A DNA stretch of 64,000 nt from Paenibacillus borealis (GTDB lineage: Bacteria; Bacillota; Bacilli; Paenibacillales; Paenibacillaceae). Where the stretch lies: NCBI RefSeq assembly GCF_000758665.1, contig NZ_CP009285.1, positions 3,844,001 through 3,908,000 on the forward strand. Reading direction: 5' to 3'. The notes below the pieces were generated by a model. It made no database searches and was not told the origin of the DNA. It was given only the letters and a program-made list of their open reading frames with translations. Shown in pieces: positions 16,252-32,135 of the stretch; position 1 is the first letter of the stretch; each line of letters starts with the position of its first letter. The position numbers and the translations under genes are program-made.

Positions 16252-16290
16252 AGAAACGGCTGCCATTTTACCTGAATTACTATAAAAATA

Positions 16291-16314
16291 CAACATATGA
16301 AAAATTCCTAATAG
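16291..16314 (-). repeat. Ter-like repeat copy R1
   Basis: Contains CAACATATGAAAAATTC, identical over 17 bp to copy R4 at 31511-31527, followed by CTAATAG. On the reverse strand it reads CTATTAGGAATTTTTCATATG, similar to the core of the Bacillus Ter site. See the copies at 30992, 31188 and 31511. Confidence 0.5.
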
Positions 16315-16449
16315 TACTGCTTGTCAACACTCCTGCATACAATTTGATGTAAGATTCACATAAGCACGCCTCCAAAGCACCCTTAAGAGAAAGGAAGCGA
16401 TTCCAACCATGCGGGATGGTTCATAAACTCCATTTTGCTGTTATATATA

Positions 16450-30632: not shown

Positions 30633-30812
30633 TCCTGCACGAAATACAACATTTCCCGCAAAATATCGAGTGTATTCGAAAATTGTTGTACAAATTGCAG
30701 CATTTTTCAATATTCAAGCGTCTAAGCGGGGCGATTGTTGTATTTCATACAACAATTTTTAAGAATCACCTAGTATCAATACATACAAGTTGTAAAATTT
30801 ACAACATTTAGG
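30633..30812. repeat. TACAACATTT modular repeat, locus 1 (four units)
   Basis: Four units spaced about 50 bp: TCCTGCACGAAATACAACATTT, TTGTTGTACAAATTGCAGCATT, then TTGTTGTA-TTTCA-TACAACAA (30735-30755, perfect 8-bp arms), and GTTGTAAA-A-TTTACAAC (30789-30805, perfect). The same four-unit order recurs at 55666-55843, and a two-unit version lies at 61935-62011. Confidence 0.75.
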
Positions 30813-30991
30813 TTTTCGCTGACACAGAACCATTTTTGCGATCTTGCCATGCTGCTACTAGCTCCTAAGAGTTGATCTGCGCCACGCCATTGATCTGCTA
30901 ATAATATTTTTTACAACCTATAAAAAATAGTACATAATTTATGTTGCATTTACAATAAAAAAATTCCTGGTAAAAAAGTGTATTTTCAATA

Positions 30992-31013
30992 CATGAAAAA
31001 ATTCATAATAGAA
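30992..31013 (-). repeat. Ter-like repeat copy R2
   Basis: Reverse strand reads TTCTATTATGAATTTTTTCATG, related to R3 and R4 with one extra T and one base change. Confidence 0.5.
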
Positions 31014-31187
31014 GCTCTAGCTTATAAACAAATCTAAGATACAAAGAAAAACCAAAAAAAACAAACTAAAAATTAATTAAAAAAATGAAAAAATATAGAA
31101 GCACTTGGATAAAATCAAATGAACCCATTAAACAAAATCAAGTGAAGAGTAGGGGAAAATCAGTATACTATTGTTGCGATAGCATTA

Positions 31188-31208
31188 CATGAAAAATTCA
31201 CAATAGAA
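31188..31208 (-). repeat. Ter-like repeat copy R3
   Basis: Forward strand CATGAAAAATTCACAATAGAA; reverse strand TTCTATTGTGAATTTTTCATG. Shares ATGAAAAATTCACAATAGAA exactly with R4. A CTATTG at 31169-31174 and the CAATAG inside the repeat also face each other. Confidence 0.55.
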
Positions 31209-31332
31209 ACAAGAAATAAGATACAAGAACCTAGGAGCAAGGAACAAGGAGCAAGGAAAAAGTGAATATAGAACAATTTCACCTCAACGGGTGATCGAGA
31301 GGGAAAAGACCAATTGCACATTATAATACAAC

Positions 31333-31520
31333 CTTGAACTTGAAGGGCTTTTCCTAACAGATCGGCGTATGAAGTAGACAGAGGGTTCAGGGATCGTCCT
31401 GAAATGCCTAGGTTTAAGCTCATTGACAAGGTGACAGATTTCTCAGCGCCAGCAATTTTAAACTCAAGCTACAGCCGCACAGTTATCGATGCAATCAAAT
31501 TCTGTAATTTCAACATATGA
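31333..31520 (+). pseudogene. Possible decayed coding remnant
   Basis: One forward frame is open from about 31339 to a TGA at 31518-31520 without a start codon, reading R-A-F-P-N-R-S-A-Y-E-V-D-R-G then E-M-P-R-F-K-L-I-D-K-V-T-D-F-S. Composition here is closer to coding DNA than the surrounding A-rich sequence. The F-K-L-I-D-K-V-T-D-F-S part recalls the N-terminal region of some transposases, but this is weak. Confidence 0.2.
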
Positions 31521-31536
31521 AAAATTCACAATAGAA
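31511..31536 (-). repeat. Ter-like repeat copy R4
   Basis: Forward strand CAACATATGAAAAATTCACAATAGAA. Identical to R1 over CAACATATGAAAAATTC and to R3 over ATGAAAAATTCACAATAGAA. It lies 240 bp upstream of the RTP homologue start. Confidence 0.55.
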
Positions 31537-31679
31537 ATAGAAACACAAAAAACTCCTGCCTGTCCAGCTTCATTCTATAAAATTCAACTCCCCACGTACC
31601 TAACTAACTTTTCAAAATGGAAAAAGGAACTTTACTTCAAACCTCCCGGTGTCCTTGATTTTCACTTCAGGATAACTTG

Positions 31680-31709
31680 TTGTGAAAGATGGGAAATAGG
31701 GTTTATACT
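31680..31709 (+). promoter_or_regulatory. Likely promoter of the RTP homologue
   Basis: TTGTGA (31680-31685), spacer 18 bp, TATACT (31704-31709), 66 bp before the start codon. Confidence 0.5.
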
Positions 31710-31775
31710 AAGGTTATAAGGAAATCAAAACCAAATGAAAAGAATCCAAAACAAAAAACACCCAGGAGGTGTCCT

Positions 31776-32135
31776 ATGGCGTTTATGATTGCCCAGCGGG
31801 CGTTTATAAAGGTATATCTGATTACAATGGTGGAGCAGCATAAAGGTTACGGGTATCAGATGCTGGAGGATCTGCGGAGAGATTTCAAAGCGTATGGGTA
31901 TTCTCCTCCCCAGAGTGAAATTTACCGTGCGCTGCATGAGTTAGTACAGCAGGGGATACTGTACCGCACGAAGCAGTTAAAGGGCAGTGATCCCAAAGTC
32001 GATTTCCAGGAAATTGTTCTATACCATTTCACTGCCGACGGGGAGGAGAAAGCCAGACTATATAAGAAGCAGGTGAAGACTGATCTGGACCGCTGTCTTG
32101 GGATACTCAATAAGGCGGTAGCAGATAACTTTTGA
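31776..32135 (+). CDS. rtp: Replication terminator protein (RTP) family protein
   Basis: A 119-residue winged-helix protein that aligns along its whole length with Bacillus subtilis RTP as I remember it: Q-R-A-F-I-K-V-Y-L-I-T-M-V-E-Q near the start, E-I-Y-R-A-L-H-E-L-x-x-x-G-I-L in the recognition region, Q-E-I-V-L-Y-H-F in the wing, and a C-terminal dimerisation helix L-Y-K-K-Q-V-K-T-D-L-D-R-C ending A-D-N-F, matching the RTP end S-D-N-F. RTP dimers bind Ter sites and block the replicative helicase in one direction. A PadR-like regulator is the alternative, but the tail is RTP-specific. The ATG at 31776 follows AGGAGGTG. Confidence 0.85.
   Translation: MAFMIAQRAFIKVYLITMVEQHKGYGYQMLEDLRRDFKAYGYSPPQSEIYRALHELVQQGILYRTKQLKGSDPKVDFQEIVLYHFTADGEEKARLYKKQVKTDLDRCLGILNKAVADNF

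Follow-up and report, generated by a model that had tools for sequence, protein, structure and literature searches.

The chromosome of Paenibacillus borealis carries, within the 64,000-nucleotide stretch analysed here (the window, positions 3,844,001–3,908,000 of a single contig of 8,156,808 bp), a short gene whose product a first-pass annotation had taken for a homologue of the replication terminator protein (RTP) of Bacillus subtilis. Fork traps have been described as confined to a few bacteria and, where RTP is concerned, as even more restricted within Bacillus (PMC10331603, PMC6549158). Our search of the open-access literature found no description of Paenibacillus Ter sites or of a Paenibacillus fork trap. 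The locus raises the question that the annotation had posed, namely whether the gene belongs to an independent fork trap or is a regulator derived from one.

The rtp gene, its product and its control region

The gene and its control region comprise the following features.

Window 31679..31699, + strand: degenerate Ter-like sequence overlapping the promoter, 13/21 matches, from comparison with relatives
Window 31680..31709, + strand: probable rtp promoter TTGTGA-18-TATACT, a promoter-like pair that recurs in relatives
Window 31764..31770, + strand: AGGAGGT, probable ribosome-binding site of rtp, read from the sequence
Window 31776..32135, + strand: rtp, replication terminator protein, 119 aa, from the PF02334 match and B. 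subtilis RTP structures

The open reading frame consists of 119 codons and a stop, and its ATG follows the end of AGGAGGT after 5 bp. The product matches PF02334 over its full length (residues 3–119; 168.3 bits, E 9.1e-50, cut-off 26.7), and the three best PDB sequences, 1bm9 (E 4.9e-31), 2dqr and 1f4k, are all B. subtilis-type RTPs aligned over residues 2–119; a search of NCBIfam with the product matched no family. The C-terminal RTP motif quoted in the first-pass annotation is present in the translated frame (LYKKQVKTDLDRC ... ADNF). The PadR profile PF03551 is also reached, at 30.1 bits against a cut-off of 27, but the RTP profile is far ahead, the reverse of what an ordinary PadR regulator would give, with PadR best and the RTP match insignificant. 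Judged by these matches, the product is a true RTP, as the annotation had proposed together with a Paenibacillus host, which is likewise supported.

In a tree of 62 rows, which rests on few columns and has long branches for plasmid and phage rows, an RTP clade of 58 rows separates from four PadR-like outgroup rows at 100/100, and the P. borealis protein groups with B. subtilis-type RTP, not with the PadR-like rows. Within RTP, those of the Paenibacillaceae group together as a single clade of 34 rows (100/99), in which three plasmid copies from Paenibacillus and a contig bearing the name Neobacillus mesonae are also placed. Neither this placement nor the shared protein family supports calling a fork trap here "independent". 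Four proteins of a family outside the Bacilli (f45, L097–L100) match PF02334 weakly from end to end (33–36 bits), fall outside RTP in the tree and are probably PadR relatives.

RTP scores above the cut-off in 99 of 100 Paenibacillus genomes (best scores 92.9–172.6 bits), the lone miss being a genome that is 71% complete (G484), and it is present in all 96 high-quality ones. Across 398 Bacilli genomes, 63 exceed the cut-off, 62 of them with at least 133 bits, in eight families. The rtp match comes in two pieces or frames, possibly through a frameshift or sequencing error, at G469:C1:3,988,351-3,988,700 and G456:C35:136,975-137,326, where Ter sites persist.

A promoter scan of the window did not rise above chance (four found, 3.1 expected). 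The best promoter-like pair lies 21–80 bp upstream of rtp in 66 of the 78 relatives examined. Of 58 relatives examined, 36 have a Ter-like stretch with at least 12/21 matches, at varying offsets, vs 7.3% of control stretches, which were not matched to promoter composition. The Ter-like sequence overlapping the promoter may tentatively be regarded as an autoregulatory site of rtp; autoregulation is known for B. subtilis RTP (PMC10331603). Further upstream, an AT-rich stretch (window 30679–30816) contains inverted repeats built on TTGTA/TACAA.

Ter sites in P. borealis and its relatives

Among the best 80 of 156 rtp loci of relatives, a core, TGAAAAATTCAYAATAG, occurs with at most 3 mismatches within 1 kb upstream of rtp in 76, which places Ter in the rtp control region; the four others are L022 (with only 35 bp of upstream DNA), L034, L061 and L067. 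Of 98 core matches within 1 kb upstream, 96 are on the rtp strand, and 10 matches fall elsewhere in the 80 loci. Taking the best site of each locus gives a 32-bp profile, ATTTCAWYATATGAAAAATTCAYAATAGWAAA, and the site stands in constant orientation some 200 bp upstream of the gene.

With the pattern CATATGAAAAATTCAYAATAG at up to 3 mismatches, six sites were found in the P. borealis genome, three on each strand, and the reversed-control pattern gave zero matches. All three + sites fall in the window, left of the terminus, and the three − sites lie to its right; each was found by both the matrix scan and the pattern search. The list also includes an imperfect candidate copy from a repeat search.

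Window 16286..16319 (genome 3,860,286), + strand: Ter site downstream of ftsY, 33.2 bits
Window 30994..31014, + strand: imperfect Ter-like candidate copy carrying an additional A (TGAAAAAATTCATAATAG), 76% to the reference copy
Window 31178..31211 (genome 3,875,178), + strand: Ter site, 41.9 bits
Window 31506..31539 (genome 3,875,506), + strand: Ter site nearest rtp, 54.2 bits
Genome starts 4,596,226, 4,605,511 and 4,605,895, − strand: three right-hand Ter sites

The matrix scan took in 856 kb around the terminus, with 13.5 bits as the next-best score after the Ter sites, and 400 kb of sampled sequence, where nothing reached 12 bits; the ungapped matrix did not pick up the imperfect copy at 12 bits. 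The candidate sites that had been noted beside rtp proved to be real repeats: TGAAAAATTCACAATAGAAA occurs there twice, at window 31190 and 31518, was matched in none of 100 shuffles, and is joined by the third site at 16286–16319. A cruder first pattern found five of the six sites and two reversed-control matches at 3 mismatches, a result that weighs against the fork-trap reading. The right-hand three sites sit between converging gene ends, and the site at 16286 is outside open reading frames of at least 80 aa. The two next to rtp overlap short frames (31160–31429, 89 aa with a TTG start, and 31489–31719, 76 aa), which are taken to be chance frames.

Ter sites were present in all 100 Paenibacillus genomes searched (1–7 per genome at up to 2 mismatches), in which the reversed-control pattern matched once altogether. 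The pattern misses some sites: when applied to selected stretches, the matrix picked up a further one in G401 and a further two in G466, all on the − side and beyond the skew switch. In 197 Paenibacillaceae genomes, assumed to be the same for the rtp and site searches, 73 have rtp and site, four rtp only, none the site only and 120 neither (Fisher p 9e-50 with relatedness ignored), four PF02334 matches below the cut-off being scored as no rtp. Within genus g267 (21 genomes), 12 have both, eight neither, and G864 has rtp with a site missed by the pattern that scores 49.3 bits by matrix upstream of the gene. The four genomes with rtp and no site by pattern (G864, G914, G931 and G951) weigh against a fork trap, as do the two with a split rtp and persisting sites.

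The Ter sequence of the proposed Paenibacillus trap is best read as unlike that of B. subtilis. The B. subtilis consensus is matched with 0 mismatches at L185, about 163 bp upstream of rtp and in the same sense as the gene, whose product looks almost the same by eye as B. subtilis RTP. No B. subtilis-type site was found at 5 mismatches upstream of L199, the Paenibacillaceae rtp put to the same comparison. Family f4 has a site in the same sense upstream of rtp that scores 15.9–31.3 bits by the Paenibacillus matrix.

Placement of the sites around the terminus

In P. borealis, rpmH, taken as a neighbour of oriC, is at 8,156,025, and oriC is accordingly placed where the two ends of the contig meet. 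All 10 samples taken from the left half show positive GC skew and all 10 from the right half negative; the sign changes near 4.40 Mb (within 3.90–4.70 Mb), with a cumulative peak at 4,407,474. The rtp gene, at 0.475 of the chromosome, lies at the inner edge of the left Ter cluster. The first-pass annotation had assigned it to an accessory part of the chromosome, away from known terminus genes, which neither this position nor its presence throughout the high-quality genomes of the genus bears out. In all five genomes read (including G466), the skew switch lies between the + and − clusters. The trap of G443 is asymmetric, its skew peak being about 96 kb from the left inner site and 263 kb from the right one.

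The order of sites was compared in all 35 single-contig genomes among the 100. Clockwise from oriC (rpmH), every + site precedes every − site in 35/35 (164 sites), an order with a chance of about 10^-32.6 if order is random and genomes are independent; kinship lowers its true weight, and site counts across genomes are not independent because the genomes are related. The + sites lie at 0.317–0.523 and the − sites at 0.507–0.752 of the chromosome, and the inner interval between the clusters measures 270–1923 kb (median 641), values that are approximate since most genome lengths are rounded to 0.1 Mb.

Among the multi-contig genomes listed, G415, matched by coordinates to P. faecalis (L055), breaks this order with one site. 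Its rtp is at about 210 kb on the − strand and rpmH at 4,601,445; were the 4.83-Mb contig circular, rtp would stand about 9% of the way clockwise from oriC, and the site upstream of rtp has the orientation predicted to block the fork coming from oriC. Alone among 76, this site, TATATAAAAAATTC (L055:4833-4849), has an otherwise invariant G changed to A; its three remaining sites follow the order expected of a trap. Only one such case is on record, and the displaced rtp may be a misassembly. The broken order counts against the fork trap, and the mutation of an invariant base in the site of a relocated rtp counts for it.

A whole-genome search for the canonical Firmicutes dif found no match at up to 3 mismatches. 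When the ±45 kb flanking the skew peaks were compared between four genomes, all shared 13-mers came from a single dif-like element, 35–233 bp from the peaks, which in P. borealis is as follows.

Genome 4,407,422–4,407,449 (L142:7422-7449): dif-like element TACATATGTACAAAATACGGGTTTTGTG, at the GC-skew peak

With 6-bp arms around a 6-bp centre, the element resembles dif in general and is unlike the canonical Firmicutes form. G466, a fifth genome that played no part in its discovery, has it with one mismatch at 26 bp from the skew peak, and all five genomes read have it within the trap. Placed against the skew switch and the dif-like element in this way, rtp and the + sites stand on one side of the terminus and the − sites on the other. 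A second copy of the element occurs in G443 at a distance of 9.7 kb, and XerS-like fragments (124 residues in two pieces, 50–61% identity) adjoin the dif-like element at G443:C1:2,740,780-2,741,132.

Near the right Ter cluster, three similar 28-bp palindromes of the type GTTAACATAAT...ATTATGTTAAC occur within 13 kb (4,586,343, 4,594,075 and 4,598,863; L151). These looser dif-like sequences were rejected as dif, being three copies about 180–190 kb off the skew switch. A gene for an XerS-type single recombinase (NF003462, 380.7 bits) lies at genome 4,603,071–4,604,174 (L152:3071-4174), 1.3 kb from the right cluster. In each of the five genomes read, xerS or its counterpart is found 0.2–1.8 kb from a Ter site (in G401 from one on the left), even though the dif-like element occupies a different part of the trap.

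A probable replication fork trap and its alternatives

Taken together, these observations very probably reflect an RTP/Ter replication fork trap in which two forks meet between opposed Ter clusters. RTP would bind the 32-bp Ter sites, probably as dimers as in B. subtilis. The + sites stand about 0.53–0.55 Mb before the terminus and the − sites about 0.19–0.20 Mb after it; each Ter would let the fork of its own replichore pass and stop the one overrunning from the other side, and the forks would meet between the clusters, around dif. In B. subtilis, a fork is blocked if the B side of Ter is the first that it reaches (PMC10331603, PMC13220808). In the Paenibacillus site, the AATAG end may be the B side, the side from which the trap must block, because the sites in L185 and family f4 share the sense of rtp, an argument that is weak alone. 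Similarity to B. subtilis Ter being low, the predicted polarity derives mainly from geometry. The site can also be aligned by eye, in reverse orientation, with the B site of B. subtilis, which would make both clusters block forks before the terminus and leaves the sequence comparison ambiguous by itself; this alignment was dropped in view of the 35/35 geometry and the same-sense sites of f4.

Between the two options of the first-pass annotation, the geometry of the sites and their co-occurrence with rtp strongly favour the fork trap. That the protein is an RTP-derived, PadR-like transcriptional regulator and the sites its operators is very unlikely: the PadR match does exceed its cut-off, a weak Ter-like sequence overlaps the rtp promoter with another site upstream of the gene, and databases often label the protein a helix-turn-helix or PadR regulator, yet PF02334 leads PadR by 138 bits, half of the six sites fall between genes that converge, a setting in which a promoter is not expected, and strict orientation by replichore would be useless to a plain regulator. 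The sites might instead be a terminus element of another protein, for example one of segregation or dimer resolution, with rtp a mere neighbour, a thought prompted by the nearness of xerS in 5/5 genomes and of other terminus functions. It appears highly improbable, given that the sites track rtp in 197 genomes with no site-only case, are absent together with it inside genus g267, and keep a fixed sense about 200 bp upstream of it.

A recent mobile or accessory origin of rtp from plasmids or phages can be set aside almost with certainty. Homologues do occur on 16 plasmid and three Brevibacillus phage records, but the gene is nearly universal in Paenibacillus, its family forms one clade, and the plasmid copies closest in sequence (L267 and L268) have no Ter site in the stretch examined. 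The mobile stretches examined (L267–L274) represent eight of the 19 matches. The seven from plasmids, scanned for both Paenibacillus and B. subtilis types, contain no Ter site, and plasmid-borne rtp was rejected as the source of the trap; the stretch of phage Jenst has two opposed B. subtilis-like sites upstream of rtp. Vertical inheritance is the best reading for the trap.

The proposed Paenibacillus trap shares with the B. subtilis system the protein family over its full length, opposed clusters around the terminus, an rtp-sense site upstream of rtp, and sites of 32 bp, a length given for B. subtilis in PMC13220808. It differs in the Ter core (CATATGAAAAATTCAYAATAG here, CTATGTACYAAATNTTCA in B. 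subtilis), in the recognition-helix region (PPQSE in place of PNHTE or PNHSE) and in width, the median inner interval of 641 kb comparing with about 0.1 kb between terI and terII (PMC13220808). In Escherichia coli Tus/ter, opposed polar sites likewise flank a wide terminus with dif inside, an arrangement whose polarity is predicted here, and both protein and site are unrelated (PMC13220808, PMC10331603). PadR regulators (PF03551) have in common with the protein a detectable winged-helix region, with a far weaker match, and the PF02334 outgroup rows from outside the Bacilli split off at 100/100.

A more far-reaching proposal, which we regard as possible though rather doubtful, is that the Paenibacillaceae have evolved a separate Ter code, read by an altered RTP recognition helix (PPQ for PNH), within one terminus module that joins rtp and Ter with the single recombinase xerS and a dif of non-canonical sequence, and that an active, misplaced Ter is so harmful that rtp can move away from the terminus only if the site beside it is mutated, as in P. 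faecalis. RTP systems were reportedly described in various Bacillus species by Griffiths et al. in 1998. A trap that stops copying and has been thought rare looks standard for Paenibacillus. RTP with mapped Ter sites across the genus provides tens of complete chromosomes that vary in trap width, position and site number, and this natural variation allows the purpose of the fork trap to be tested comparatively. Because Ter has changed, a second RTP/DNA specificity pair is available to compare with that of B. subtilis.
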